Below, one piece after another: positions 2,422 to 61,436 of a DNA stretch of 64,000 bases. Made by a program: the position numbers and the translations under genes. The stretch is from positions 62,001-126,000 of the forward strand of contig CACZCK010000002.1 of NCBI GenBank assembly GCA_902779675.1, read 5' to 3'. Source of the stretch: an uncultured Coriobacteriaceae bacterium (GTDB lineage: Bacteria; Actinomycetota; Coriobacteriia; Coriobacteriales; Atopobiaceae). The notes under the pieces were generated by a model. It was not told where the DNA came from, made no database searches, and was given only the letters and a program-made list of their open reading frames with translations. How positions within the stretch are numbered: the stretch's first letter is position 1; every line of letters starts with the position of its first letter.

Positions 2422-3885
2422 ATGAAACGCCCTGCCTACAACCCCTACCTGCCCAGCTGGGAGTACGTTCCTGATGGAGAGCCACATGTCTTCGATGGTC
2501 GCGTGTACGTGTACGGCTCGCATGATGCAGCTGCTGGCGGGAGCTATTGCCCGGGCGACTACGTATGCTGGTCGGCACCTGAGACCGACCTTGCAGACTG
2601 GCGCTTTGAAGGGGTGATCTTCCGCAAGACTGATGACCCCTCGAACCCTGCCGGTGATGCGCCGCTCTTCGCACCGGATGTCGTGCAGGGCCCCGACGGG
2701 CGGTTCTACCTGTACTACGCAATCGCGTCCATGCTCGTGGGCAGGCCGTGTCACATCGGCGTAGCCGTGTGCGACGAGCCTGCGGGGCACTATCACTTCC
2801 TTGGCGACGTGACACTTCCTGGCGGAACGCCGCTCGACTCGGACAGTGGATACGGCATGGTGTTTGATCCTGCCGCCTACGTCGAAGGCGATGCGGTTTG
2901 GTTGTACTGGGGCTTCGGCATGCCCAAGGCAAGCCCTCGCATGCCTGCCGCGGTGACTGAGGGTAGCTGGGTGGTGCGCCTTTCGTCCGACATGGTCACG
3001 ATGGCGGAGGCGCCCCATCGCTTGGCTCCGGCCAAACTGCAGGCGGATGGCACGAGCTTCGAGGAGCATCCCTTCTTTGAGGCGTCGAGCTTCCGGCGCA
3101 TCAAGAGCCGTTACTACTTTATCTACTCGAGCCTGCAAGGCCATGAGTTGTGCTGGGCGCATGCGGAAACGCCCGAGGGGCCGCTCACATACGGTGGCGT
3201 GCTGCACTCCAACGGCGATGTGGGGATGCCTGGCAAGCCCACTGAGGCGGAAGCCACATACTATATGGGCAACAACCACGGGTCGCTTGTGGAGCTGTCG
3301 GACGGACGGGTCTTCGTGTTTGGCCACCGTCACACCCATGGCCACCAGAACTCGCGGCAGGGCGTGGCGGAGCCCGTTGTCATTCATGAGGACGGCTCTA
3401 TCGAGCAAGCCGAGATGACCAGCTGCGGCCTCAACGGCGGACCACTTGCCGCCGTGCACGAGACGCCCGCCTATACCTGCTGTCACCTGCGCAGTGTCGA
3501 AGGCGTGCTGCACTATAGCGGCTCGGTGAAGATCGATGAGGCCCATCCCTTCGTGAGCCAGGATGCCGATGCGGGGGCGGCCACCTCGGCCTATGCCTAC
3601 ATCCACAACCTTCGCGATGGAGCAGAGGCGGGCTGGAAGTACCTGGAATTTGATGGTTCGGAGCGCACTGTGCGGCTCGAAGTGCGTGGTACGTTTACGG
3701 GCTCGGTCAGCGTGCGAATCGATGCGCCTGATGGTCCCGAGGTTGCTCGAGTGCTCGTGAGTCCATCGGAAGGCTGGAGGTGGGCCGAAGCTCGCATCTC
3801 CTCACCTGTCGCGGGCGTACACGCCGTCTATCTCGTTGCCTGTGGATCGGCGTCCCTTGATCTGCGCGCTCTAAGCTTCGCCTGA
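2422..3885 (+). CDS. Glycoside hydrolase family 43 (xylosidase/arabinofuranosidase-like)
   Basis: The product is a 487-residue GH43 enzyme expected to remove xylose or arabinose from oligosaccharides. The N-terminal two thirds read as the five-bladed propeller: an early catalytic Asp (VPDGEPHVF), the middle Asp (FAPDVVQGPDG) and a later Glu (FFEASSF). The last ~120 residues (YLEF... VSVRIDAP) resemble a beta-sandwich accessory domain of the CBM6 kind. No signal peptide is seen, so it should act inside the cell. ATG 2422 is preferred because AGGAG lies at 2412-2416; an upstream in-frame GTG at 2386 lacks a ribosome site. It lies downstream of the esterase on the same strand. The exact sugar cannot be read from sequence alone. 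Confidence 0.8.
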   Translation: MKRPAYNPYLPSWEYVPDGEPHVFDGRVYVYGSHDAAAGGSYCPGDYVCWSAPETDLADWRFEGVIFRKTDDPSNPAGDAPLFAPDVVQGPDGRFYLYYAIASMLVGRPCHIGVAVCDEPAGHYHFLGDVTLPGGTPLDSDSGYGMVFDPAAYVEGDAVWLYWGFGMPKASPRMPAAVTEGSWVVRLSSDMVTMAEAPHRLAPAKLQADGTSFEEHPFFEASSFRRIKSRYYFIYSSLQGHELCWAHAETPEGPLTYGGVLHSNGDVGMPGKPTEAEATYYMGNNHGSLVELSDGRVFVFGHRHTHGHQNSRQGVAEPVVIHEDGSIEQAEMTSCGLNGGPLAAVHETPAYTCCHLRSVEGVLHYSGSVKIDEAHPFVSQDADAGAATSAYAYIHNLRDGAEAGWKYLEFDGSERTVRLEVRGTFTGSVSVRIDAPDGPEVARVLVSPSEGWRWAEARISSPVAGVHAVYLVACGSASLDLRALSFA

Positions 3886-3918
3886 CGGAATTCTTGAACT
3901 GCCCGTGTGAACCAATGT

Positions 3919-3968
3919 GCAGGGCATTCGACCCGTTCGCGCTCTCGCGTTCGAGTCGAATGCCCTGC
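3919..3968. terminator. Bidirectional terminator between convergent genes
   Basis: A perfect 14-bp inverted repeat (3919-3932 and 3955-3968) with a 22-nt loop lies between the GH43 stop on the plus strand and the acetylesterase stop on the minus strand. It is well placed to end transcription from both sides. Confidence 0.7.
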
Positions 3969-3985
3969 TTATGTCGTAGGCCAGC

Positions 3986-5578
3986 TCAGCAGCTCATCGC
4001 AAACGGCAGGGCAGGAATCTCAGCGCCGTTGTAGAGGTTGGTGCGGAACCAGTTGCTCCAGGCGAAGCGCACCTCGAGCGGGCCAGACGGGTTCCCATCA
4101 AGCATGATGACCAGGGTGTCGCCCCTCGCAGCGGCCCGGAAGGGCAGGGGTGAGCCGTCGCAGAGGACCTCGAGCGCGTTGCACTCGGCACCCTCTAGCA
4201 GCATGCCACCGGCGGCGTTCTCAAAGTGCAGGATGACGAACGAACCCTTGCGCTCAGCGCTTGTGCAGCGCGGCGCATCCGCAGGCACGGGCATCCCTAA
4301 CAGGTGGTTCATCACCAAAAGGGCCAGGCGCTCGCCGATGGGCTTCTTCTCCTTGGGGTGAATGTCGTGCTTGTCGCCCATGTCGCTGGCCGAGCAGAGC
4401 CACACGTGCTCGTCGGTGTCGGCAACCTTCTGCTGGCAGGCGCGGATGGTCACGTAGTCATTCGGACCGAGCCCCATCCACTCACCAAAGCCTGGGATCT
4501 GAACAACGAGGAAGGGCAGGTCGGGACGCTTCCACGCCTCGCGCCAGTCGGCAATGACGGTGCGTAGCGCCTCCTCGTGGCGCCACTGGGTACCGTCGAT
4601 CTCGTCGTCGCTCTCGCCCTGATACCACAGCACGCCGCGCGCGGCAAAGCCGGCGATGGGCTGCACCATATAGGTGAAGAGAGCACCCGGGGCCTCCTTG
4701 GTGGGGGTCATCATGCCGGGGTGGATGTGCAGGTCGGTGCTGCTGGCCTGCAGACCGCCGATCTCGAGCCCGCCCACGTCGGCCGGCCCCGGCCCCTTCG
4801 CCGCCTCGGCCGCGAAGAATGCCCCGGCCTCGTCCATGGTCGGCGTCCTCGGCAGGAAGAACTCGTTCCATGCGGGCCAGGTGGCGTAGCCCTTGTCGTT
4901 CTTGGCGGCATTGACGCGCCCATTTGCCAGCAGCTCCTCGTACGGCAGTCCCTGGAGCTTTGCGTCAAAGGCCGCCGCGAGCTCGGGCTGCACGGTACGC
5001 GCGTGCTCGGGCGTCATCCATGCGGCAGACGTGGTGCCGCCGTAGTTACAGCCCACGATGCCCACGGGCATGTCGAGCACCATCTCGAGGCCGCGCGCGC
5101 AGTAGTAGCCCACCGCCGAGAAGTAGTCGAGGTCCTCGGGCGTAGCCTTGCGCCAGATGCCCACCTTGGAGTAGTCGAAGTCTTCCGTCTGGCCAGGATA
5201 GGAGCACTTGGGCTGGTCATAGAAGCGGATGCGCGGGTTGTCGCAGGTGGGACGGTAGTCCTCGACCTCCTTGTCGTAGCGCATCCAGAACTCCATGTTG
5301 GACTGGCCGCCCGCGATGAAGACCTCGCCCACGGCCACGTCAGCAAGGGTGATGCGCTCATCACCTCCGACCACCTCAAGCGTCTCGCTGTCGGAGGCGG
5401 TGAGCGGCGCGAGCGTACAAGCCCAGTCGCCAGCCTCGTCAGTCGTAGCCGCGGCGCTCTGCCCCTGAATGCGCACTTCAACGCATACGTCAGGATCGGC
5501 CGTCCCCCACACCGTCACGGGCAGCTCGCGCTGCAGGACCATACCGCTGGCAAAGATGGGGGCGAGTGAGAGTGTCAT
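3986..5578 (-). CDS. Sialate O-acetylesterase-like SGNH hydrolase
   Basis: This 530-residue protein resembles the sialate 9-O-acetylesterase family, SGNH hydrolases that remove acetyl esters from sialic acids or plant sugars. The nucleophile block GGQSNMEF, the WYQGESD block and the HDIHPKEK block carrying the catalytic Asp and His are all present. The N-terminus (LAPIFASGMVLQRE) is typical of the family, and that fixes the start at ATG 5578 with AAGGG upstream on the minus strand. No signal peptide is seen. It sits among glycosidases, so a xylan or pectin acetyl substrate is as plausible as sialate. Confidence 0.82.
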   Translation of the reverse strand: MTLSLAPIFASGMVLQRELPVTVWGTADPDVCVEVRIQGQSAAATTDEAGDWACTLAPLTASDSETLEVVGGDERITLADVAVGEVFIAGGQSNMEFWMRYDKEVEDYRPTCDNPRIRFYDQPKCSYPGQTEDFDYSKVGIWRKATPEDLDYFSAVGYYCARGLEMVLDMPVGIVGCNYGGTTSAAWMTPEHARTVQPELAAAFDAKLQGLPYEELLANGRVNAAKNDKGYATWPAWNEFFLPRTPTMDEAGAFFAAEAAKGPGPADVGGLEIGGLQASSTDLHIHPGMMTPTKEAPGALFTYMVQPIAGFAARGVLWYQGESDDEIDGTQWRHEEALRTVIADWREAWKRPDLPFLVVQIPGFGEWMGLGPNDYVTIRACQQKVADTDEHVWLCSASDMGDKHDIHPKEKKPIGERLALLVMNHLLGMPVPADAPRCTSAERKGSFVILHFENAAGGMLLEGAECNALEVLCDGSPLPFRAAARGDTLVIMLDGNPSGPLEVRFAWSNWFRTNLYNGAEIPALPFAMSC

Positions 5579-31400: not shown

Positions 31401-32246
31401 CTAGCCCAAGAAGCCGAAGAAGGCGCCTATCACACCGAGCACCATGGTGCCCAGCACCAGGTACGACGGGTTGATCTTCTTGGACAGCAGCCAGTAGTAC
31501 GCCCAGAAGGCACCAAGGCCCAGGATGCCCGGCATGATCTCGTTGAGGATGTCCTGGATGGTGGCGGCATCCTCGGCGGCAGACAGGGCAACGGGGATCT
31601 CGGCCCAGAACATGTCGACCGTCATGGCGCCGATGACCATGGCGCCGATGATGGCCGCCGCGCTCATGACCTTGGCCATAAGGCCCGTGCGCTGCGCCTG
31701 CTCGAGGAAGTTGACACCCAGGTCGTAGCCCTTCTGCGCACCCCAGATGCGCAGCCAGAAGCCGGGAAGGTTGTAGATGAGCAGGAAGGCGATGGGGCCA
31801 AAGGGGTTGCCGGCCTGCATGAGCGAGATACCCACGGCAGCAGCGATGACGCGGATGGTGGCCAGGAAGATGGAGTCGCCCAGACCCGACAGCGGACCCA
31901 TGAGGGCAGCCTTGACGTCGTTGACCGCCTCGGGCTCGATCTCGCCGCGCTTGATGCGCTCCTCCATGGAGAGCGCGATGCCGCCCACGAACGGCGCAAA
32001 CTGCACCGTGATGTTAAAGAACGCGGCGTGGCGGCCAAGGGCTGCGGCATAGCCCTCGGGATCGTCGTGGTAGACCTTCTTGAGGACCTTGCCCATCATG
32101 ACGGCAAAGGCGAGGTTCATCTGCTTGTAGTAGGTCCAGGAGAACTCCATGCCCAGCGAGCCGTCGTTGAGGGCCATCTCCGTAAGGTCCTTCTTGGTGA
32201 TCGCGTACTGGTCGCCCGCGACCGGGGCCTGGACATCAGAAGTCAT
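31401..32246 (-). CDS. PTS mannose-family EIID
   Basis: The 281-residue membrane subunit belongs to the mannose (Man) PTS family. ALMGPLSGLGDSIFLATIR is a diagnostic EIID motif, and SWTYYKQMNLAFAVMM near the start also fits. Together with EIIC it forms the channel. ATG 32246 is preferred because AGGAGG lies 6 nt upstream; it overlaps the EIIC end by 11 nt, so the two are translationally coupled. Confidence 0.9.
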   Translation of the reverse strand: MTSDVQAPVAGDQYAITKKDLTEMALNDGSLGMEFSWTYYKQMNLAFAVMMGKVLKKVYHDDPEGYAAALGRHAAFFNITVQFAPFVGGIALSMEERIKRGEIEPEAVNDVKAALMGPLSGLGDSIFLATIRVIAAAVGISLMQAGNPFGPIAFLLIYNLPGFWLRIWGAQKGYDLGVNFLEQAQRTGLMAKVMSAAAIIGAMVIGAMTVDMFWAEIPVALSAAEDAATIQDILNEIMPGILGLGAFWAYYWLLSKKINPSYLVLGTMVLGVIGAFFGFLG

Positions 32247-33003
32247 CGTCATCCTCCTCAAGGGCGAGCTGGGCGTCCATGCCACCGCCAAGCAGGTTGA
32301 ACTTCTCGATCACGATGATGATGGCAAGCAGGGCCACACCAAGAACCGGCATCCCCACGTAGCTGCACAGCAGGAAGCCGAGGAAGAAGAAGGGCATGGA
32401 CTCCTTGTTGAGAATCATGCGGCCGAGCATGGCAAAGCCCATGGCAGGCAGCATGTTGGCGGCAATGCCAAAGCCATCGAGCACGAAGGAGGGAATCCAG
32501 TCGAGGATGCCCTGAACGGCATCGGCTCCCAGGAGGAACGCCCCGCCACAGAGCAGGAAGTACTCCAGGCAACCCCAAAGGCCAATGCCCCAGTGGGCGA
32601 TGCGGGTACTCCGAAGGTCGCCCTCGCCAGCCTTCTTCTCGCCCCAGTCGACGATGAGCGGCCAGATGGGCTGCAGCAGGTTGCCGATGGCCTGCGAGAG
32701 GATGGCGATGGGCATGGCCAGCGCGATGGCAGCCTCGGTGCCCTGACCCAGGCTGATGGCAAAGGCACAGGCCAACACGCCGCCAACCGTCTCGTTTGGC
32801 GGAACGTAGGCTCCGATGGAGATGGAGCCCATGAAGAGCAGCTCGAGGCTCGCACCAACGGCGAGGCCGGTCTGCAGATCGCCGAGCGCGATGCCCACGA
32901 GCGGGCAGAGCACGATCGGCCGGAACGCATAGAGGGTACCCAGCTGATAGTCGAAGCAACCGAACGCTGCAACGAGGCCTACCAGGATGGCTTGCATGAC
33001 CAT
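32236..33003 (-). CDS. PTS mannose-family EIIC
   Basis: The 255-residue integral membrane protein has the EIIC-Man hallmarks: an early FRPIVLCPLVGIALGDLQTG and GASLELLFMG. The C-terminus is strongly acidic (EEDDDDF). It forms the sugar path with EIID. GGAGG lies before ATG 33003, and a second in-frame ATG lies two codons on. A strong hairpin separates it from the upstream EIIB gene. Confidence 0.9.
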   Translation of the reverse strand: MVMQAILVGLVAAFGCFDYQLGTLYAFRPIVLCPLVGIALGDLQTGLAVGASLELLFMGSISIGAYVPPNETVGGVLACAFAISLGQGTEAAIALAMPIAILSQAIGNLLQPIWPLIVDWGEKKAGEGDLRSTRIAHWGIGLWGCLEYFLLCGGAFLLGADAVQGILDWIPSFVLDGFGIAANMLPAMGFAMLGRMILNKESMPFFFLGFLLCSYVGMPVLGVALLAIIIVIEKFNLLGGGMDAQLALEEDDDDF

Positions 33004-33080
33004 GTGTTCCTCCTTCCTTTCCTTGTCTGTAGCGATTGGCTACGATGAGTTCAGCCGTCGGACAGGCGCCGACGGGCAGA

Positions 33081-33120
33081 TGCGGGCGGGACGTACCGGA
33101 CCAGGGAGTGCCCGCCCGCA
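33081..33120 (-). other. Intercistronic hairpin between EIIB and EIIC genes
   Basis: A perfect 10-bp stem (33081-33090 and 33111-33120), very GC-rich, lies just past the EIIB stop. It resembles the hairpin at 34945-34970 and may set relative subunit amounts. Confidence 0.55.
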
Positions 33121-33128
33121 GCGATGCC

Positions 33129-33599
33129 TTACAAAACGCTTGCCGCGTCGATCTTGGGATCGTCGGCCAGCGGGCGAATCTCGACCTCGATGCCACGGTC
33201 GATCAGCTCGCGAATCATCTGCTCCTCCTCGGGCTCCAGGAAGACCTGGCGCGCCACGGTGCGTGTGGTGGGGCTGCTCTTGGTGTTGCCGAGGTTGATG
33301 GACGTGACGGCCGGGCAGTTGTCGGCCAACTGCTTGGCCTCGGCGATGGTCTGCACGCTGATGAGCATGCGGTACTTGTCGGTCACGCCAGAATTGATGG
33401 CCTCGATGGCGTGAGCCATGTCCTTGATGACAAGCTTGCAACCTGCAGGCTTGCCCATCTTGAGGGTGGTCTTCCACACCGGGTCGTTGGCAATGTGGTC
33501 GCCCACACAGAAGATGCAGTTGGCCTTGAGGCCCTGGGCCCAGGAGACGGCCACCTGGCCGTGCAGCAGGCGATGGTCAACGCGAAGCAACAAGATCAT
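33129..33599 (-). CDS. PTS mannose-family EIIB
   Basis: The 156-residue cytoplasmic subunit carries the phosphorylated histidine in RVDHRLLHGQV (His14) typical of Man-family EIIB. It transfers phosphate from EIIA to the incoming substrate. By context the product would be a 6-phosphorylated Amadori compound. Confidence 0.9.
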   Translation of the reverse strand: MILLLRVDHRLLHGQVAVSWAQGLKANCIFCVGDHIANDPVWKTTLKMGKPAGCKLVIKDMAHAIEAINSGVTDKYRMLISVQTIAEAKQLADNCPAVTSINLGNTKSSPTTRTVARQVFLEPEEEQMIRELIDRGIEVEIRPLADDPKIDAASVL

Positions 33600-33657
33600 G
33601 ATTTCCCTCCCAAAGGAATCGGTGGTACGTGCGTCGGGCCGAGTGACCCGTTAGTGC

Positions 33658-34077
33658 CTAGAACTCGTCGTCGTCATCGACACCTTCGGTCAAAAGGTCG
33701 TTGACGAACTTGACGCGCGCGTCGTCGGAAGATGCCAGCTCGCGCAGCAGGTCTGCCGTAGGCTGGTCGTCATCGGCAAACACCAGCTGCAAGAGCAGCG
33801 GCAGGTTCATGTTGGTGATTAGGTACACGTTGTCGTGGAGCTGCATCTGCTTGGTGAACTCGTTGTTGACCGAGCCGCCAAACAGGTCGGTGCAGACGAT
33901 CACGTCGCCCTCGCCGGCCTCCTCGACTGCCGTGGCACAGATGGTCTCGACGTCGTCGTTGCCGTCCACAAACAGGCATATGACACGGACGTTCTCATGG
34001 GGACCGGTCAAGAGCTCCAAAGCCTCGTTGATGCCGGCGGCAAAGTGCGCATGGCTTGCGATGATGATGTTTCTCAT
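33658..34077 (-). CDS. PTS mannose-family EIIA
   Basis: The 139-residue subunit has the EIIA-Man start MRNIIIASHAHFAAG, where His9 corresponds to the phosphorylated residue. VIVCTDLFGGSVNNEF also fits the family. GGAGGTGAG precedes ATG 34077, and the upstream epimerase gene ends 2 bp before it. The C-terminus is acidic (DDDDEF), like that of EIIC. Confidence 0.88.
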   Translation of the reverse strand: MRNIIIASHAHFAAGINEALELLTGPHENVRVICLFVDGNDDVETICATAVEEAGEGDVIVCTDLFGGSVNNEFTKQMQLHDNVYLITNMNLPLLLQLVFADDDQPTADLLRELASSDDARVKFVNDLLTEGVDDDDEF

Positions 34078-34079
34078 AG

Positions 34080-34913
34080 CTATCTCACCTCCGTCGCATG
34101 CTGGTAGATGCTCATCGTGCGGGCATCGGCTGCGGCGGGATCGGCCAGATAGCGCTCGCTGTACGTCTCGACCGAGCAGATGCCCTGGTACCTGTGGGCG
34201 ACAAGCGCGTCGAGATCGGCGCGCATCGAGCGGTGGCCGTCGCCCCATGCCACATGGCTCACGTCCGCATAGTCGGTAAAGTGGCAGTGGACGATGCTGT
34301 CGCCCAGCTCGTCGAAGTAGCCATCGATGGTCTCACCGGCGCGCTCCATGGCCCCGATGTCCAGGCACGCCAGAAGCGCAGGGTTGGCAACCTCGTCGAT
34401 CAGCTGCGCGATATCGGCCGCCGTGTTGGCGAGAACCGACTCCTCGGGCTGCAGCGCCTCGAGCACCAGCCGGACGCCTCGCCTGCCGGCTTGCTCTGAC
34501 AGCGAGCGCAGCATCTCGACGGATCGACCCCAAGCCTCCTCGCGCGGCTCGTCGAGAAACGCCCAGCCGGGCGTGACCACAACCTGCGGCGCGTCCAGTC
34601 CGGCCGCCACCTCGATGGCATTGCAGAAGTACGCATGGGTGCGTGCCTGGGCGCGCAACCCCCGCGCCGCGACATTGTGCGGCTTGGGGTTGTTCTGCTC
34701 GGGGCAAAGGCCCACAAGCGCAAGCCCGTGACGCGCAAGGCCATCGCGCAGCTCATTTAGCGGGTCATACCCGAACGCGCTAAGGAAGAAGTGCATGGGG
34801 CCTGTCCACAGCTCCACATGGCGATAGCCTGCGGCTTCCGAGCTGGCCAAGAACTCTTGTAGCGGGTAGAAGCTGTGGATGATGTTCATTGCAGCGAGCT
34901 GTGGATAGCGCAT
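34080..34913 (-). CDS. frlC: FrlC-like fructosamine 3-epimerase (TIM-barrel)
   Basis: The 277-residue protein is an AP-endonuclease-2-type TIM barrel close in length and pattern to FrlC, which interconverts fructoselysine and psicoselysine. Likely metal ligands are Glu in LVLEALQPEES, Asp in CLDIGAM, His in HCHFTDY and Glu in SVETYS. GYRHVELWTG and FDELGDSIVHCHF resemble FrlC. GGAGG precedes ATG 34913. It sits between the deglycase and EIIA genes. Confidence 0.72.
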   Translation of the reverse strand: MRYPQLAAMNIIHSFYPLQEFLASSEAAGYRHVELWTGPMHFFLSAFGYDPLNELRDGLARHGLALVGLCPEQNNPKPHNVAARGLRAQARTHAYFCNAIEVAAGLDAPQVVVTPGWAFLDEPREEAWGRSVEMLRSLSEQAGRRGVRLVLEALQPEESVLANTAADIAQLIDEVANPALLACLDIGAMERAGETIDGYFDELGDSIVHCHFTDYADVSHVAWGDGHRSMRADLDALVAHRYQGICSVETYSERYLADPAAADARTMSIYQHATEVR

Positions 34914-34944
34914 GTCCCCCTCCTTTCGCGCGTCTCGAAGCGAC

Positions 34945-34970
34945 GCCGGGCGGACGCGTGCCCGCCCGGC
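34945..34970 (-). other. Intercistronic hairpin between deglycase and epimerase genes
   Basis: A perfect 9-bp stem (34945-34953 and 34962-34970) lies just after the deglycase stop. It shares the GGGCGGGCAC string with the hairpin at 33081-33120 when read on the minus strand. Confidence 0.55.
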
Positions 34971-34978
34971 ACCGAAGC

Positions 34979-36040
34979 CTAGTAGTCGAACTGGTGGTAG
35001 TAGCGGCGGTAGGCGAGGTTGTGCTTGGTGTTGAGCTCGTAGTACGCAGACAGGCGGTCGGTCACGAGCGAAGAGAGGATCCACACCGAGGTGATGGGAC
35101 GGAACTCGGGATCGACGCCAGGCAGCGCATACTCAGCGGTGTCGATGACCACGATGTCCTGGTCGCCGGTGCGGCCGCTCTTTAGGAAGGCGTCAACGCG
35201 CTCGTCGAGCTTGCGGCACTCGTCCTCGCCCTTGAACAGGATCACAGGCACGCCAGGCTCCACCAGCTCGAGGGTGCCATGGAAGAAGTCGGCCGAGGTG
35301 ATGTAGCGGGTGCGCTTCCACTGCATCTCCTCGAGGATGCACATGGCAAACAGGATGGTCTCGCCCCACAGCGCGCCAGAGCCCACGAACATGGTGTAGG
35401 GGGCCAGAGCGTACTTCTTGGCGATCTGCTCGGCCTTGGGCTCGAACTGCTTGCGAATGTCGAGGAGGCTCGCCCAGACATCCTTGGTCTGATCGACGAA
35501 CTCACGGTACTTGGGGAAGCAGCCGCGACGCTCCAGGATCTTGAGACCAAAGCGATCGGCCAGGTAGTAACCCATCTCGCAACCGCCCTCACCATGGCTG
35601 GAGGCCATCTTGATGCAGTTGTCGGCACCCACGGCCTGGCCGATGGGCCCCTCGGGCTTGGTCATGGCAAAGACGCGGACACCCATCTCCTTGAGCTTGC
35701 CGATGGCCTCGAGCACCTCGGGGGTGGTGCCGCTCTCGGAGGCGGTGAGCACGACGGACTTGCTCGTCATGCGCTTGTGGCCGGCCACGTTCCACTCGGC
35801 GGCGTGGATGAGATAGACCTCAAGATCCTTGTCGCCGTACTTGTTCATGAGGTACTCGAGCTGCATGAACTCGTCCCAGGTGCCGCCCACGCCCATCAGG
35901 AAGATGGCGTCATAACCCTCGTCGGCAACGCGGTCGGCCAAGGCCTCCATCTTGTCGCCGGCCTCGACGGCTGCCTTTCCGTCTGCCAGATAGCCCTCCT
36001 GGTCGAAATGCATGATCTCGACCTTCTCCGTCTCCTTCAT
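34979..36040 (-). CDS. frlB: FrlB/GfrF-like fructoselysine-6-phosphate deglycase (SIS domains)
   Basis: The 353-residue protein has two SIS domains and the FrlB-type features: FLMGVGGTWDEFMQLEYL, SESGTTPEVLEAIGK, ITSADFFHGTLELVEPGVP and the ending RRYYHQFDY. FrlB splits fructoselysine 6-phosphate into glucose 6-phosphate and lysine. CGAAAGGAG precedes ATG 36040. It is the second gene of the operon. The exact amino-acid partner (lysine, asparagine or another) cannot be told from sequence. Confidence 0.75.
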   Translation of the reverse strand: MKETEKVEIMHFDQEGYLADGKAAVEAGDKMEALADRVADEGYDAIFLMGVGGTWDEFMQLEYLMNKYGDKDLEVYLIHAAEWNVAGHKRMTSKSVVLTASESGTTPEVLEAIGKLKEMGVRVFAMTKPEGPIGQAVGADNCIKMASSHGEGGCEMGYYLADRFGLKILERRGCFPKYREFVDQTKDVWASLLDIRKQFEPKAEQIAKKYALAPYTMFVGSGALWGETILFAMCILEEMQWKRTRYITSADFFHGTLELVEPGVPVILFKGEDECRKLDERVDAFLKSGRTGDQDIVVIDTAEYALPGVDPEFRPITSVWILSSLVTDRLSAYYELNTKHNLAYRRYYHQFDY

Positions 36041-36120: not shown

Positions 36121-37245
36121 TTAGGCGCCGTAGCGCTCCGCTGCCTGGGCCTCCAGCGCATGGATGGCATCGGCGTAGCCAACCGCCTTCGTGTTCATGC
36201 GGTCCGCCTGCGCCTCGAGAAGCGGGTGCACGTCCTCGCAGCGCAGTTCGTCCATCAGCTGGGCGCACATCCACTGGAAGGGCACCAGCGCAGGAATCGC
36301 CGCCATGAGCGGATTGCGGACCGATGGGAGGAGGAGGAGGGAAGGGCCCTCCCCCTCCCGATTGGGAAGGAAGGTGACCAGGGTGGTTGCACAGACCCGG
36401 GAGAAGCTATCGGCCAGAGTCGCCGTACGCTCGTCACCCTGGGCATCTTCGAGCAAGAAGAGCTGGTAGCGTGGGTCGATCTGCATCTCGGGACCATGGA
36501 CGAACTCCTCGGGCTCGTGCATCATGGCGGGACGCTTGAGACATTCGTTGAGCTTGAGGCAGGCCTCCATGGCCACTCCGTAGAGCGGGCCGGCGCCCAC
36601 GACCATCGTGGGAGCGCTCCGAACCAGCTCACGCCGCTGGGCAGCCATGAAGGCCTCGGTCGCATCCAGCGCGCCGGCATGAGCATCGATGGCCGCCCCA
36701 AGGTCGGCGAGTCCTACGGCAAGCGCCTCGTTGTCCAGACGCCCGACCGCGTGTGCCGCATGCAGGGCAAAGAGCATTAGGAACTCGACGAGCGTCTGCA
36801 TGCCCATGGTGACGAAGTCAACCGACTCCACGCCCACGCCCCAATCGATCACGAGGTCGGCATGCTCGCTCACCGGAGCCGCCGGGTTGCCGGTAAGGGC
36901 GACGGCCGTACGCCCCAGCGAACGGGCGAAGTCGAGCGCGGCCAACGTGTTGGTGGAATAACCGCTCTGGCTGACAAACACCTCGAAGGCGTCGGACGGC
37001 CAAGCATGATCGAACTTGACGTAGGACTCCGGCGTGACGATCACGACGGGCACCTCGAGGACCTCCTGCATGAGGTCGCGCGCGCAGAAGCTGGCGTTGC
37101 GCGAAGATCCGCATGCCACGATGCGCACGGAGGGAGCGCCGGCATGGGCATACGCGTCAACCAGCGAGGAGACCAGCTCTTTGCCACGGGCGACGTTCTC
37201 GCGCATGCGCGGGTTTGCCAACTTGACGTAGTCGAGCATCCTCAT
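36121..37245 (-). CDS. GlmS-like SIS protein, candidate second deglycase (GfrE-like)
   Basis: The 374-residue protein has two SIS domains of the GlmS/AgaS kind (IVACGSSRNASFCARD, VFVSQSGYSTNTLAAL, MVVGAGPLYGVAMEACLKL, HEPEEFVHGPE). It lacks a glutaminase domain. In Salmonella a man-type PTS locus encodes two such proteins, GfrE and GfrF, for glucoselysine and fructoselysine phosphates; this gene fits the GfrE role. It is the first gene of the operon, and the repeats at 37263-37385 lie upstream. It could also be an isomerase/deaminase of another amino sugar. Confidence 0.68.
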   Translation of the reverse strand: MRMLDYVKLANPRMRENVARGKELVSSLVDAYAHAGAPSVRIVACGSSRNASFCARDLMQEVLEVPVVIVTPESYVKFDHAWPSDAFEVFVSQSGYSTNTLAALDFARSLGRTAVALTGNPAAPVSEHADLVIDWGVGVESVDFVTMGMQTLVEFLMLFALHAAHAVGRLDNEALAVGLADLGAAIDAHAGALDATEAFMAAQRRELVRSAPTMVVGAGPLYGVAMEACLKLNECLKRPAMMHEPEEFVHGPEMQIDPRYQLFLLEDAQGDERTATLADSFSRVCATTLVTFLPNREGEGPSLLLLPSVRNPLMAAIPALVPFQWMCAQLMDELRCEDVHPLLEAQADRMNTKAVGYADAIHALEAQAAERYGA

Positions 37246-37262
37246 GTCCTGTCCCTCCCCTG

Positions 37263-37385
37263 CAATACCTGTTAGTTACTTTTCAATACCAATTTGTTGA
37301 GAGACAAGTTATCAGGTTTTTAAATCCAATTGTCCGCGAACAGCCGTCTGCGGGCGAGTGGTATCAAAACGTCGCTAAGTGGTAT
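37263..37385 (-). promoter_or_regulatory. Promoter region with two pairs of 21-bp-spaced repeats
   Basis: CAATACC occurs at 37263-37269 and 37284-37290. The near-complement GTGGTAT occurs at 37358-37364 and 37379-37385. Each pair is spaced exactly 21 bp, which places the copies on the same DNA face. The repeats lie upstream of the Amadori operon and recur at 39453-39478. Confidence 0.55.
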
Positions 37386-37424
37386 TTATTTCTAGCTTAG
37401 TTGTCTATGTTTGGCGATGGCTCG

Positions 37425-37451
37425 CGCGCAAGGGGTGCTCCCCTTTGCGCG
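37425..37451 (-). terminator. Terminator of the GntR operon
   Basis: CGCGCAAGGGG (37425-37435) pairs with CCCCTTTGCGCG (37440-37451) with a 4-nt loop and a one-base bulge, just past the end of the minus-strand GntR gene. Confidence 0.65.
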
Positions 37452-37463
37452 AAGGACCTGGTT

Positions 37464-38186
37464 TTAGAACTTGAAGGTATAGCCGGCAAAGTCCGCGCGG
37501 CTGATGTTGCGGGCATACTCGATCGCATTGCCCGAGATGTCGTAGCTCACGCCCTCCGAGACCATAGCCACGTCTCCCGTATCCACGTGCAAAAGGCCCG
37601 CCTCACGCGCCGTGAGCGCCAGCACGTCGAGTTTCTCCTGCACGCGCGCCACCTTGTGGCCCAGCAGCTCATACGTCTCGTACAGGCTGAACACCTGGAT
37701 GTCGACGTCTTCGATCGTCGGCAAGAGGCTCAGCGGGATCAGCGTGTTCTCAAGCGCCACCGGCTGGCCGTCAAGGCTGTTCAGGCGGCGCAACGAGTAG
37801 AGCAGGTCGTCCTCCGGAATGCCAAAGAGCCAGCCATAGTAGGCACCCGCCTTGCGCCTCCCGCTCGCAAGCAGGCGCACGGACGGCTCCATGCCGAGGG
37901 CCTCCGCCACCTTGCGGAAGCCACCCTGCGGGACGGATGTGCGGCTGATGTTATGGGAGGAGACGAACGCCCCCTTGCCCTGCACGCGCCGTATGCACCC
38001 CCGCTCGACCAGCGCATCCATGGCATTGCGCACGGTGAGGCGCGTCGTCCCAAACTCGTCCGCAAGCTCGTTCTCCGAGGGCAGGACCGAACCGGCAGGA
38101 TACTCGCCGCGATCGATGCGCTCTTCGATCTTGCGGCGTATGCGCAGGTATATGGGCTGTTCGTGCGAGCTTACGATCTGAGCCAC
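37464..38186 (-). CDS. GntR/UTRA transcriptional regulator (HutC subfamily), first
   Basis: The 240-residue protein has an N-terminal winged helix (YLRIRRKIEERIDRGEYPAG, LPSENELADEFGTTRLTVRN) and a C-terminal UTRA ligand domain ending in YARNISRADF. It is the last gene of a three-gene overlapping unit. GTG 38186 is chosen because GGAGG lies upstream and homology begins there; it overlaps the previous gene by 16 nt. It probably senses an Amadori phosphate, like FrlR, and controls the divergent-facing PTS operon. Confidence 0.78.
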   Translation of the reverse strand: MAQIVSSHEQPIYLRIRRKIEERIDRGEYPAGSVLPSENELADEFGTTRLTVRNAMDALVERGCIRRVQGKGAFVSSHNISRTSVPQGGFRKVAEALGMEPSVRLLASGRRKAGAYYGWLFGIPEDDLLYSLRRLNSLDGQPVALENTLIPLSLLPTIEDVDIQVFSLYETYELLGHKVARVQEKLDVLALTAREAGLLHVDTGDVAMVSEGVSYDISGNAIEYARNISRADFAGYTFKF

Positions 38187-38935
38187 GCGTCGCTCACCTC
38201 CGCTGCACCCGTGTCCCACACCTCGTCGCTGGCAAAGCGGAAGTGTGCCGGCAAGGTGACCGACTTAAAGTACTCGACCGGCTCCATCTGCTCCGTCCAC
38301 TCCTGGCCGCGCTCGTAGAAGGCGGGCTCCCCCTCCTCGACACCCAGGATCTCGGACTCCCACTCGTTGACGCGTGTGATGGAGATACGCTCGATGCTGT
38401 GCGCGATCGAGATGCCGTACTTTTGCTTGAGCACCTCGTACAGACTCTCGACCGCGAAGTCGTGACTCTCGATACCCGGGCAGATCTCACTGTTGACGTA
38501 CGTGGTCTCGATGGCGACGGGCACGCCGTCTGCCATGCGCAGGCGCCTGAGCTCCAGGACCGTGGCACCCACCTCAACACCCAGCTTTGCCGCAAGCGCT
38601 TCCCCCGCAGGGAGAAAGCCCTGTGAGAGCACGCGCGCAGAGGGAACGAGCCCCGCGTCGCGCACCGCCGCCGAAAAGGCTCCGGCGCTCTGAAACACGC
38701 TGAGAGGCTTGGGTGCGCACACATACGTACCCGACCCAACCCTGCTTTCGAGCACGTGCGCGCTCGTAAGCTGGGCGATTGCTCCACGCAGGGCAGTACG
38801 AGAGATGCCCAACCGCTCGCAGAGAATGCGCTCTGCCGGAAGGCGGTCGCCGGCAGCAAGCCCCTCGCTCTGGATGAGCCACAGGATCCCCTCGGCCGCC
38901 TTATCGCGTGGAGGTATGTCAAACGTCTCGGTCAT
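38171..38935 (-). CDS. GntR/UTRA transcriptional regulator, second
   Basis: The 254-residue protein has a GntR winged helix (AGDRLPAERILCERLGISRT) and a UTRA domain (VLELRRLRMADGVPVAIETT). It differs clearly from the neighbouring GntR, so this is not a recent duplication. Both ends overlap neighbouring genes (17 nt upstream, 16 nt downstream), so the three are coupled. Two regulators may respond to two related substrates or form a hierarchy. Confidence 0.78.
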   Translation of the reverse strand: MTETFDIPPRDKAAEGILWLIQSEGLAAGDRLPAERILCERLGISRTALRGAIAQLTSAHVLESRVGSGTYVCAPKPLSVFQSAGAFSAAVRDAGLVPSARVLSQGFLPAGEALAAKLGVEVGATVLELRRLRMADGVPVAIETTYVNSEICPGIESHDFAVESLYEVLKQKYGISIAHSIERISITRVNEWESEILGVEEGEPAFYERGQEWTEQMEPVEYFKSVTLPAHFRFASDEVWDTGAAEVSDAWLRS

Positions 38936-39428
38936 CTGGTGATATGTGCTCTCTCATGGCATCAAAGGTGGCCTTTAGCCGTTCTGCGTATTCTACCATG
39001 CGCCTAAACGGCACAGAGTCGCGCTTGGTCGCACGAGTGATGACGGGAAGCTGCAGATGCCCGACGCCACCCTCTGCATCATCCGAACGCACGGCAACCA
39101 CGACGCCCATACCCAGACAATACCCATGCCTCGCAGCATTGTCCTGTGTAGCCCGCGCGGGATTCTTGAGCAGTTCCTTGAGACGGTCTGCGTTGGTGTC
39201 CACGTCTTCCTGCGGCTTGGCCTCCACGATTTCGCAGGCAAGCACGTCATCGTATGAGAAGATGCGCGGACTCGCCCCTGGATACCGCACTGCCCAGCGC
39301 CGCAGGGGCTCATCGAGGCAGACGGTCGGTTCGAGCGCAAGCGGCGCCGCCTCGTAGACGACCTTGGTCGCTGTGAAGCCCGTCCCCTCAAAGAGCTTCT
39401 GAAGCCTTCGTGTCTTCCTGTCCGTCAC
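38919..39428 (-). CDS. Protein of unknown function leading the GntR operon
   Basis: The ~169-residue protein is not a family I can name. It contains RRWAVRYPGASPRIFSYDDV and an alternating pattern that could be a PH-like or beta-rich fold, with a charged helical C-terminus. There is no signal peptide or membrane segment. GTG 39428 has GGGAGG 6 nt upstream and is preferred over an in-frame TTG at 39458. It overlaps the next GntR gene, so it probably works with these regulators. Confidence 0.6.
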   Translation of the reverse strand: MTDRKTRRLQKLFEGTGFTATKVVYEAAPLALEPTVCLDEPLRRWAVRYPGASPRIFSYDDVLACEIVEAKPQEDVDTNADRLKELLKNPARATQDNAARHGYCLGMGVVVAVRSDDAEGGVGHLQLPVITRATKRDSVPFRRMVEYAERLKATFDAMREHISPDDRDV

Positions 39429-39452
39429 CGTGATCCTCCCGTTGTCCTTAAG

Positions 39453-39482
39453 ATACAACTATGCTAGTTTCTAATACCAATT
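39453..39482. promoter_or_regulatory. 21-bp-spaced ATAC repeat before the HAD gene
   Basis: ATAC at 39453-39456 and AATACCAATT at 39473-39482 place their ATAC cores exactly 21 bp apart, as at 37263-37290. They lie between the GntR operon and the HAD phosphatase gene, so both may be under the same control. Confidence 0.5.
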
Positions 39483-39524
39483 AAAACAAGTCTTGTTTTC
39501 CAAATAGCGAACGAGGGAGGACCA

Positions 39525-40196
39525 ATGGCTCCAAAGGCAGTCATCTTCGACATGGACGGTGTGCTCGTGGACACCGAGCCAGAAAACCAGCGCCACATTC
39601 AGGAGTTCTTTGCCGACCGCGGACTCGAGTTGCCCAAGGCCGCTACCGACGACCTCGTAGGCTGCACAGGTGCCTACTTTCTCGAGCGCATCAACGAGTG
39701 GTGGGCCGCAACGCCGCGCAAGCATGTTGACGAGCTCGCTATGAGCGCTGGCGAGGCCATGGACCGCCACTTTGCCAACATCCTCTACGACTATCCCTCG
39801 CTGCTCAACCCTGGGGTGCCCCAGACGCTCGACGGCCTTCGCGAGCGCGGCATACGCTGCGCCGTAGCCTCTTCAACCGAGCGGACGGGCATCGTGCGGG
39901 CGCTCGAGCCCTGCGGCATTCTCGACAAGTTTGCCTTCGTCCTGTCTGGCGAGGACTTTGAGCACGGCAAGCCGGCTCCCGACATCTACCTGGCAGCCGC
40001 CGTAAAGCTCGGACTCGATCCTACCGACTGCATCGCCATCGAGGACTCCGACCGCGGTATTTTGGCTGCTCGGCGCGCCGGCATGCGAGTGGCCGTCAAG
40101 CGCGAGAAGCGCTTTGGCTTTGCTCAGGAGGGCGGCAGCTGGTACCTCGACCGCATCGACGAGCTGCTGGGGATCGTGGACGGCGAGCTGCAGTGA
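39525..40196 (+). CDS. HAD-family phosphatase (beta-phosphoglucomutase-like)
   Basis: The 223-residue protein shows the HAD motifs in order: FDMDGVLVDTEP (motif I), VASST (motif II), KPAPDIYL (motif III lysine) and IEDSDRGILAA (motif IV). It resembles sugar-phosphate phosphatases or beta-phosphoglucomutases. The upstream site matches that of the Amadori operon, so it may dephosphorylate an intermediate or a stalled product. The substrate is unknown. Confidence 0.8.
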   Translation: MAPKAVIFDMDGVLVDTEPENQRHIQEFFADRGLELPKAATDDLVGCTGAYFLERINEWWAATPRKHVDELAMSAGEAMDRHFANILYDYPSLLNPGVPQTLDGLRERGIRCAVASSTERTGIVRALEPCGILDKFAFVLSGEDFEHGKPAPDIYLAAAVKLGLDPTDCIAIEDSDRGILAARRAGMRVAVKREKRFGFAQEGGSWYLDRIDELLGIVDGELQ

Positions 40197-42778: not shown

Positions 42779-44680
42779 CTATCGCACCAGCAGGCTTGCG
42801 CCAATCAGACCCGCATCGCCACCGCACTTGGCCAGCTCGATGCGCAGCGTGGACGGGTTGAGCACCAGCTTCTTGGCCTTCTCGCACACCAGGTCGATGA
42901 ACCACGGGTTGTTGAGCGCAACCGATCCGCCAAACACGAACACATCCGGGTCGACCACGCAGCTCACGTTATGGACGGCCTTGGCCAGCACGTCGGCTGC
43001 ATGGTCGATAACCTTGCGCGCAGTCTCGTCACCCTGCTCGTACAGGGCAAAGACCTCGGCTGGGTCGACCGTGCGCCCCAGACCCTTGGACGCCATACGC
43101 GCGATCGACGGTCCGCTCGCCTGTTCCTCGACCGAGCCGACGTTCATGCCCGGGCGAACGTCCTCGAACTCGTTGACCACCATGTTGAAGACCTCGGCCG
43201 CACACGAGTTGGCGCCGCCCACGATCTGGTTCTGGTAGATGTAGGCACCGCCCACGCCCGTGGACACCGTGAAGTAGAAGAGCGACTCGTAGCCCCAACC
43301 AGCACCGCTCAGCGACTCGGCCAGACCCGCAACGTTGGCGTCGTTGTTGAGGCGCACGCGATGCTTGGTCTCGCGCTCGAGGAAGCTCACGATGTTGAAG
43401 TTCTCCCAGCCAGGCAGGTTGGGCGGGTTGAGAATCTTGCCCGCCTTGAAGCTGAGCGGACCAGGCGCCCCCACACCGATGCCCATATAGCCGATGCCCC
43501 AGCCGTTGATGGCATCAACCAGGCGCTGCAGGTTGGCCGCAGGGCCGAGGTCGTGGTCGTTAGGCATGACCTCCTTGGCCAGCTCCTCGCCATCCTCGTT
43601 GTAGGCTGCCACACGCAGTTGCGTGCCGCCGATGTCGATGCCGATGCGGTTCTTGGTCGCGCCACCTGCAGATTTGGTCGTCGGATAGTCTCCCTTGCCC
43701 CAACCGCTTGCCGCGATGGTCGGCACGTAGCTGCAGATGAGCGTCATGTCGCCCGAGAGCGACAGCGCGCCCGACCCGTGGGGAGCCACGAAGTGCGAGC
43801 CCTTGTGCACGTCCCAGCTACCGGCGGGCGTCGACACCTGTCCGCCTGCGCCCGCAACGACCGACAGGCACATAAACGGATGCCGCTGCTCGAGCTCCAC
43901 GGGGGCGTCCGGCGTCACGCGCACACGCAGCACCTCAAAGTACTCGCAGCTCATGAGCTTGGTGACGCCGTCCACCTCGGGCGCGGTCACCTTACCGCTC
44001 ACGGGGGCCTTGGCGCCGTAGTCGATAACGTCCATGGCCTGCTGCAGGTGCAGCTCTCGCAGGCTGCCGTCGGCCTGACGGCGGTCAAAGTCGTAGACAC
44101 GGTAGGTCACATCGGAGGACTGCTGGGTCTCGAGGATCATCGTGCCGTCCATGATGGCATGCATGGTGCCAGGCCTGATGTCGAAGAAGTCGCCCGGATG
44201 GATGGGCACACGGTTCTCGAGGTCGTCCCAGCGACCCTCTGCGACCATCTGGGCAAACTCAGCGCGATCGTGGGCGTGCTGGCCCACGATGATCTGGCCA
44301 TCCTGCTTGGCATCCAGCACGTACCAGCACTCGGATTTGCCGAGCGAGCCGTCTTCGTGCTCGAAGGCGTAGTCGTCGTCGGGATGCACCTGAATCGAGA
44401 GGCTCTCGCGAGCGTCAAGCACCTTGACCAGCAGTGGGAAGCGGTCGCCCACCGCACCCTCAAACAGCTCGTGATGCTCGTACCACAACTGCGAGAGGGT
44501 CATGCCGTCGTATGGACCGCCATCGATCTCGCAATCCCCGTGCGGGTGCGCAGCGATGCCCCAGCACTCTCCCACCGGACCGTCCGGCAGCTCATAGCCA
44601 AACTCCGCGAGCCTCCGCCCGCCCCAGATGTTGTTGTGCAGGACCGGCTTCAGCATGATCAGACCCGGACGATCGCTCAT
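42779..44680 (-). CDS. Mannose-6-phosphate isomerase fused to a ROK domain
   Basis: The 633-residue protein joins a type I phosphomannose isomerase (about 1-320) to a ROK sugar-kinase-like domain (about 344-633). The isomerase part has Gln97 and His99 in QVHPDD, Glu117 in KSECWYVL and His174 in GTMHAI as zinc ligands. The ROK part keeps the ATP motif GIDIGGTQLR, GVGAPGP and NNDANVAGLAE, but lacks the usual CxCGxxGC zinc motif. It could convert mannose or another hexose to fructose 6-phosphate in two steps. It is last in the GH1-EIIC operon. Confidence 0.78.
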   Translation of the reverse strand: MSDRPGLIMLKPVLHNNIWGGRRLAEFGYELPDGPVGECWGIAAHPHGDCEIDGGPYDGMTLSQLWYEHHELFEGAVGDRFPLLVKVLDARESLSIQVHPDDDYAFEHEDGSLGKSECWYVLDAKQDGQIIVGQHAHDRAEFAQMVAEGRWDDLENRVPIHPGDFFDIRPGTMHAIMDGTMILETQQSSDVTYRVYDFDRRQADGSLRELHLQQAMDVIDYGAKAPVSGKVTAPEVDGVTKLMSCEYFEVLRVRVTPDAPVELEQRHPFMCLSVVAGAGGQVSTPAGSWDVHKGSHFVAPHGSGALSLSGDMTLICSYVPTIAASGWGKGDYPTTKSAGGATKNRIGIDIGGTQLRVAAYNEDGEELAKEVMPNDHDLGPAANLQRLVDAINGWGIGYMGIGVGAPGPLSFKAGKILNPPNLPGWENFNIVSFLERETKHRVRLNNDANVAGLAESLSGAGWGYESLFYFTVSTGVGGAYIYQNQIVGGANSCAAEVFNMVVNEFEDVRPGMNVGSVEEQASGPSIARMASKGLGRTVDPAEVFALYEQGDETARKVIDHAADVLAKAVHNVSCVVDPDVFVFGGSVALNNPWFIDLVCEKAKKLVLNPSTLRIELAKCGGDAGLIGASLLVR

Positions 44681-44980
44681 GTGAAATGCTCCTTTCCGTA
44701 ATCCTCGGATGGTAGGGCGCAGGAGAGATCCTTGTCCCACCATGTAAAGAGACACGCCGTGTTGACCTTCGGTGGTTTTGCTCTGCACCCATTCTAGATG
44801 CGAAAATGGTGCTGAGAGCGGTGCTTTGCGCATTCTCTCGCTCGGGTGGGAGGGGACGCATGGTTGGCGCCAGCCTCCTCCCACTGTCTGCGAAAGGAAG
44901 GAAGGGTGCCGTCTGGCCCTCGGGCGGGGGCTCCGTCACGTGGAGCGTGCGGAGGCATGAGGTGCCTCGTCCCCGCGCCT

Positions 44981-60065: not shown

Positions 60066-60101
60066 GTCAGTTCCTCTTTCTTATACCGAGCGTCCGCTCG
60101 T

Positions 60102-61436
60102 CTATACCACACGCTTGCTCTTCCATGCCCCGCTGCGCCATCGCCAGATCAGCGCGACCGCTCGGGCCAGCCAGTCGGCGCACATGGCCCACGCGATGCC
60201 CATTACGCCCATGCCCAGCAGCACGCCCAGCACATACGACAGCACGAGCCGCACCGCAAGCGTGCAGGCGATGGACACCCACATGGTAAAGGCCACGTCG
60301 CCAGTGGCGCGCAGGCCGTTGCCCAGGCAGCCGGAGAACGGGAAGACGAGTGCGTTGAACGTGTTGTGCAGTGCCACCAGCTGGATGACCAGCGCGATAG
60401 TCTGCGGTTCCAGCGCATAGAAGCGCAGGATGAGCGGCGTGGCGGCAAACACGGCAATGTTCCACGCCACGGAGAAGACCAGCGTGATGCGCATGAGCCG
60501 GCCAAAGTAGCGGCTCGCCGCCTCCACGTCGCCAGCGCCCATGCACTGGCCGATGACGGTGATGAAGACCGGCCCAAAGGCCGAGCCTGCCAGCGCAGCC
60601 AGGCTCCATATGCTCTGGGCCACGCCGTTCGCCGCAATCTGGTAGGTGCCAAACAGGGCCACGATGGACGAGAGGGCCACCTTGACCAGCTGGAAGATGG
60701 CGTTCTCGGCACCGTTGGGCACGGCGATGCCGCCGATCTTGGCAAGCATGGGCCCGTTCCAGCGGCCGATCCATCGTATGCGATAGCGCACGTCGCGCTC
60801 GCGGAAGGCCATCCAGGTGATGATCGCCGCAGAGGCCATGCGCGCCACCAGCGAGGGCCAGGCCACGCCTGCCACACCGGCATGCAGCACAAAGATGCCC
60901 ACGTAGTTGCCCACCACGTTGATCACGTTGGAGACTATCGACACCACCATGGTGATGCTCGTCTTGCCCACACTGCGGAAAAGCGCGGCACCTGCGTTGT
61001 AGACCGCCAGCGCCGGATACGAGAGCGCGGAGATGCGCAGGTAGGTGAGGCAGGCTGCCATGACGTCGGGCTCGACGCGGCCAAACATCAGCCCCAGCAG
61101 CTGCCGCGCGAACAGAAGCACTGCCACGCTCATGGCCACCGAGAATACCGCCGAGAACATAAGGAGCTGGCTTGCCGTCTCGCTCGCGAGGTCGCGGTCG
61201 CGCATGCCCACGTACTGCGACACCACCACGGCGCCACCGGCCGCCAAGGCCGTGAACAGAAAGATGAACACGGTGTTGAACTGGTTGACCAACGACACGC
61301 CAGCCACGGCGGCCTCACCCGCCTGGCTGATGAAGAACGTGTCGGCCAGACCCACGAGCATGACGAGCAGCTGCTCGAAGAACAGGGGCACGATCATGCG
61401 CGCAAGGTCGCGATTCGAGAAAGGCTCGACAGCCAC
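60102..61436 (-). CDS. MATE-family efflux transporter
   Basis: The 444-residue protein has twelve hydrophobic segments and MATE features near the start (PLFFEQLLVMLVGLADTFFI), with repeats of AGVAWPSLVARM and PFSGCLGNGLRATGD. It exports drugs or other compounds with sodium or proton exchange. It is near the flavodoxin gene on the same strand and may share its transcript. Confidence 0.87.
   Translation of the reverse strand: MAVEPFSNRDLARMIVPLFFEQLLVMLVGLADTFFISQAGEAAVAGVSLVNQFNTVFIFLFTALAAGGAVVVSQYVGMRDRDLASETASQLLMFSAVFSVAMSVAVLLFARQLLGLMFGRVEPDVMAACLTYLRISALSYPALAVYNAGAALFRSVGKTSITMVVSIVSNVINVVGNYVGIFVLHAGVAGVAWPSLVARMASAAIITWMAFRERDVRYRIRWIGRWNGPMLAKIGGIAVPNGAENAIFQLVKVALSSIVALFGTYQIAANGVAQSIWSLAALAGSAFGPVFITVIGQCMGAGDVEAASRYFGRLMRITLVFSVAWNIAVFAATPLILRFYALEPQTIALVIQLVALHNTFNALVFPFSGCLGNGLRATGDVAFTMWVSIACTLAVRLVLSYVLGVLLGMGVMGIAWAMCADWLARAVALIWRWRSGAWKSKRVV

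Follow-up and report, generated by a model that had tools for sequence, protein, structure and literature searches.

GntR repressors are usually described as homodimers that bind palindromes. Among proteins of solved structure, the best sequence relatives of the two GntR/UTRA regulators studied here, R1 and R2, are the GntR/HutC amino-sugar repressors NagR/YvoA and DasR. The retrieved part of the NagR report describes an operator with a GTGG-type half-site, which is also found in the three repeats of our locus (S1 to S3), and base contacts in which Arg38 reads G-5 and Arg48 reads G-4 (PMC4333415). The half-sites of NagR, however, are inverted and bound by one homodimer, whereas those described here are direct repeats 20 or 21 bp apart that occur together with paired regulators. 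Being direct, S1 to S3 lack the one inverted GT-N4-AC repeat that defines a GntR/HutC operator.

Exceptions to the palindrome rule are on record. They include NagQ, with direct TGGTATT repeats, and NanR, with direct TGGTATAW repeats, according to the accessible text of a review of GntR motifs (PMC4494728), and NanR binds (GGTATA)3 as three dimers according to an excerpt of another (PMC8012715). As quoted in these partial sources, the repeats of both proteins are direct copies of a half-site nearly identical to that of S1 to S3 (PMC4494728, PMC8012715), and S1 to S3 have the direct TGGTAT repeats at the operator by which the same excerpt defines the NagQ/NanR type (PMC4494728). The original prediction that GntR/UTRA proteins usually bind a single palindrome holds as a rule, but it does not extend to NagQ and NanR, which take direct TGGTAT repeats in the portion of the source at hand (PMC4494728). 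Because such repeats are already known for these GntR proteins, a tandem arrangement is not by itself a sign of two regulators; what looks new here is the R2-R1 pair and the geometry of its operator. In the available extracts NagQ and NanR are described as single regulators without an obligate second one, whereas our locus encodes a pair, and the 20/21-bp spacing was not found in those extracts. A literature search over partial texts likewise returned no paper that describes an obligate pair of GntR proteins, or this operator in Coriobacteriia.

In gene content the locus resembles the frl and gfr operons, with which it has in common SIS deglycase-like and epimerase-like enzymes and a mannose-type PTS. 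Unlike in those operons, the fructoselysine equivalog models are reached here only far below their cut-offs (PRK11382, 83.1 against 430 bits; PRK09856, 109.9 against 305 bits), and the name 'Amadori' locus is a reasonable guess from gene content. The gfr regulator is a sigma-54 activator, unlike the GntR pair here. Within the window, by which we mean the whole stretch of 64,000 nucleotides that was analysed, the genes of the locus are as follows:

31401..34074, minus strand: mannose/sorbose-type PTS IIA, IIB, IIC and IID
34080..35006, minus strand: xylose-isomerase-like barrel protein, distantly like fructoselysine 3-epimerase (below cut-off)
34979..36040, minus strand: second SIS-domain protein, distantly like fructoselysine-6-phosphate deglycase (below cut-off)
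36121..37245, minus strand: SIS-domain protein, whose gene leads the operon that follows S1 and S2
37464..38219, minus strand: R1, GntR/UTRA regulator, whose start may be the GTG at 38198
38171..38935, minus strand: R2, GntR/UTRA regulator, Pfam families above cut-off
38919..39428, minus strand: DUF, which opens the regulator operon and matches no Pfam or NCBIfam family
39525..40196, plus strand: HAD-family hydrolase, divergent from the regulator operon

Both R1 and R2 have an N-terminal GntR winged helix and a C-terminal UTRA domain, each Pfam family scoring above its cut-off. S1 and S2 lie between R1 and the minus-strand SIS/epimerase-like/PTS operon, with S1 about 20 bp upstream of the first SIS gene start and S2 behind the R1 stop in the opposite orientation. 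S3 is as much upstream of the divergent operon that encodes both GntR regulators as it is of the HAD gene. The elements of the two intergenic regions are:

37265..37291, minus strand: S1, proximal operator-like direct repeat TGGTAT ... GTAT, 21 bp
37305..37329, minus strand: degenerate box, located between S1 and S2, that may include an extended -10 (TGATAACTT), a putative promoter recognized by comparing the window letters with other loci
37359..37385, plus strand: S2, distal direct repeat made of two GTGGTAT copies 21 bp apart
39453..39479, minus strand: S3, direct repeat within the divergent promoter region that separates DUF-R2-R1 from the HAD gene

The exact 21-bp spacing first proposed for three places was borne out when the letters were verified at all six positions: CAATACC at 37263 and 37284, GTGGTAT at 37359 and 37380, and ATAC at 39453 and 39474 ahead of the HAD gene. 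Together, the intergenic regions, which are 218 and 96 bp long, contain exactly six ATAC/GTAT words, all of them paired at 21 bp. The accompanying claim that such a threefold spacing is unlikely by chance also proved sound, since the three observed pairs compare with a mean of 0.004 in 20,000 dinucleotide shuffles of both regions, none of which (0/20,000) reached two pairs, and in 4,000 shuffles no single spacing from 10 to 40 had three pairs. Across the 64-kb window ATAC-N17-ATAC has four matches against 0.22 expected; the fourth, at 60083-60107 on the plus strand, is away from the locus and is without the remainder of the motif. A search of both intergenic regions found no consensus sigma-70 promoter, no terminators were found at the locus, and no Rfam match was found in 36900-39800.

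A genome-wide search for ATAC-N17-ATAC had been suggested as a check. In the 2.9-Mb genome it gave 29 matches against 37 for the reversed control, so the bare pattern means nothing outside the locus, and a genome-wide regulon based on it was rejected for want of any excess. A fuller motif, TGGTAT-NN-AAA-N6-TA-N4-GTAT with up to two mismatches allowed, has exact matches at S1 and S2 and a single further match, with two mismatches, while its control has no matches in the genome. S3 has three mismatches and is missed at this limit. Within its genome, then, this longer form occurs almost nowhere but at the locus.

The repeats had been put forward as shared regulatory sites, and their conservation across genera supports this. 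At E 1e-35, searches found R1 in 34 and R2 in 33 of 150 relatives; a search over 395 genomes of the order found R1 in 65, and from this larger search a second set of 20 stretches was fetched. The proteins of the window served to annotate the fetched loci. In 12 non-redundant Amadori-type loci (near-copies dropped), GGTAT direct repeats peak at a spacing of 21 (8, against 0.44 per other spacing), and a motif search that excluded the window's genome and near-copies recovered the same kind of box, with 4 of 22 sequences lacking a site. Over 55 loci from other genomes, with the near copy of the window's genome also left out, TGGTAT..GTAT occurs at 14 sites with a spacing of 20 and 20 sites with a spacing of 21, against 1.69 per other spacing; these counts are somewhat inflated by kinship among loci and include four apparent chance matches in coding sequence (L125 7108, L126 6663, L196 7659 and L189 13925). 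Three altered control words were flat across spacings in the same 55 loci, where inverted and everted TGGTAT/ATAC arrangements gave no comparable peak.

The DUF gene is present in 35 of 57 pair loci, always of the Amadori type by gene content. A site at 20/21 occurs in 26 of the 35 loci with DUF, the exact form being absent from the other 9, in 4 of the 22 loci without it, and in 12 of the 20 loci fetched last. In six regions from loci without DUF, a search for repeats of their own yielded one weak 21-bp repeat (TACCGTTCA, L137) and otherwise nothing telling. A looser pattern run over 150 genomes matches in 28, near the R2-R1 pair in 14; where a genome lacks the pair, its matches appear fortuitous. 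Judged by this sequence conservation, S1 to S3 are very probably real control sites that have been retained in distant relatives.

The placement of the sites recurs as well. At least nine other loci have a reversed S2-type site behind the stop of R1, and those of the other types are distributed as follows:

S2-type, after the R1 stop: L115, L117, L123, L125, L129, L180, L185, L192, L196
S3-type, before DUF: at 21 bp in L066, L178, L183; at 20 bp in L117, L123, L185
S1-type, before the SIS gene: L183, L189

Three further loci (L062, L188 and L193) have a reversed distal site, then two forward sites 35 bp apart, then the SIS gene. Several placed sites per region suggest a multi-site operator rather than a single promoter element. 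At about 8600-8625 of L129, a clean palindrome (TTGGTATGAAATACCAA) lies upstream of the SIS gene, adjoining the usual direct repeat; it is an inverted use of the same half-site.

The original prediction had also raised the possibility that two regulators are involved, and this gained support from the obligate R2-R1 pair and its conservation across genera. In the first set, R2 adjoins R1 at 38 of 38 loci, although contig ends truncate some of the R2 copies; R2 is immediately upstream of R1 in 36 (gap -49 to +143 bp), the exceptions being one R2-R1 fusion and one reversed gene order. The second set adds 22 strong pairs, every one of them adjacent (22/22), and two weak R1 matches (26 and 28% identity) occur without a partner in L190 and L192. 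The pairing is spread across the Coriobacteriia-type genomes searched. In an 81-row tree, from which the R2 fragment of G014 was left out, R1 and R2 are two separate clades, each forming one side of a branch, and the genome's six other UTRA proteins (of eight in all) fall outside both. With near-copies dropped, R1 and R2 distances correlate over 27 pairs (r 0.844; 0/2,000 permutations reached it), mirroring that is also expected of any co-inherited neighbours. R1 and R2 are paralogues that are co-inherited, adjacent and in one case fused, as would suit a heteromeric pair.

The fusion (L136 7618-9096, plus strand) comes from a second, different locus of a near relative, G003, and is a single case among about 60 pairs, from a metagenome assembly. 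It joins R2 and R1 in one ORF of 492 amino acids with two GntR and two UTRA stretches. Its predicted model (mean pLDDT 85.4, pTM 0.74) agrees with the two halves being held in a fixed arrangement; in the alignment behind it, the R2 rows were placed on the R1 half and the first half rests on 4 rows. The pair and the site do not always go together: the fusion locus has no 20/21 site, and of the loci without DUF only the four counted above have one. Upstream of the fusion lies a box loosely like S3 (TTGGTCTAGAA...TAGTTG).

The two regulators differ at a residue that corresponds to a base-reading position of NagR. After R1 and R2 were aligned with NagR-type relatives to place the two columns, the Arg38 column was Arg in 37/37 R2 sequences, and in R1 Asn in 25/38 and His in 5/38. 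The Arg48 column is Arg in 35/38 R1 and 36/37 R2 sequences, the remaining R2 having a gap. The sites are unequal too. We collected 29 distinct sites with no requirement other than GTAT..AA and a GTAT at 20/21. The left GTAT is preceded by G in 29/29 of them, the right GTAT by G in 15, T in 11, C in 2 and A in 1; when other spacings were tried with the same definition, 1 to 3 sites resulted. Since the residue asymmetry parallels the half-site asymmetry, the strict half would belong to R2.

On the evidence of the sequences, we lean towards the view that S1 to S3 are operators of the local R2-R1 pair, most likely bound by a heteromer that represses both operons until a ligand releases it. More tentatively, and at somewhat less than an even chance, the pair may be an obligate heteromeric GntR/HutC repressor whose Arg38 and mostly-Asn38 subunits split the base reading of an asymmetric two-turn direct repeat. 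In the scheme that we infer, which extends to binding, heteromer, subunit placement, repression and ligand, each site is an asymmetric direct repeat with a strict left half (TGGTAT followed by A's) and a relaxed right half (NGTAT), the two lying two helical turns apart on one face of the DNA. Within the heteromer, R2, with its Arg38, would contact the strict half, and the relaxed half would fall to R1, which mostly has Asn38. Bound behind R1 and before both operons, it could repress the uptake/deglycation operon and its own operon, and a sugar-phosphate ligand of the UTRA domains would lift this repression. As no consensus promoter was found, activation is an alternative to repression.

A less probable but serious reading is that one regulator binds the direct repeats as homodimers, in the manner of NanR and NagQ, while the other acts on a different element such as AAGT-N4-ACTT, perhaps with a second ligand. 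Single GntR proteins are known on direct TGGTAT repeats, as the consulted parts of two reports have it (PMC4494728, PMC8012715), and both R1 and R2 have an intact GntR domain. In several loci, moreover, the proximal boxes contain a GT-N4-AC palindrome that would suit a HutC homodimer. The heteromer is nevertheless favoured by the exceptionless adjacency of strong pairs, by the natural R2-R1 fusion and by the way in which the half-sites are unequal in parallel with the residues. AAGT-N4-ACTT or a near form of it lies inside the proximal boxes of G075, G062, G037, G067 and G030, where it resembles an ordinary HutC palindrome and is unaccounted for by the heteromer model.

We regard it as improbable that the boxes are a promoter element, or sites of a remote regulator, with R2-R1 nearby by coincidence. 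The boxes do stand at expected promoter positions in regions where no consensus sigma-70 promoters were found, yet S2-type sites are reversed and behind R1, several sites occur per promoter region, and the fuller motif's near confinement to the locus leaves the proposed regulator encoded elsewhere without support. Chance repetition in A+T-rich intergenic DNA is hardly credible; the bare pattern is no commoner in the genome than its reversed control, but a chance origin was rejected by the shuffles and by the conservation of the boxes in other genera. If the R2-R1 heteromer is obligate, it could be a bacterial GntR repressor that senses two ligands at once. An unequal pair with a matching unequal operator and a natural fusion would offer a test case for obligate heteromeric repressors, and the operator motif allows the regulon to be traced in this bacterial group.

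The DUF protein gave a confident predicted model, with a pLDDT of 88.1, and a fold search with it returned no match at E <=0.001, the best rows including weak PH-like domains. Two other ORFs were noted by eye. The fusion locus L136 also carries, at 2571-4067 on the minus strand, a 498-aa ORF resembling a sugar kinase plus a HAD hydrolase, and the window contains, at 42779-44884 on the minus strand, a 701-aa ORF resembling a mannose-6-phosphate isomerase plus a ROK-type sugar kinase.
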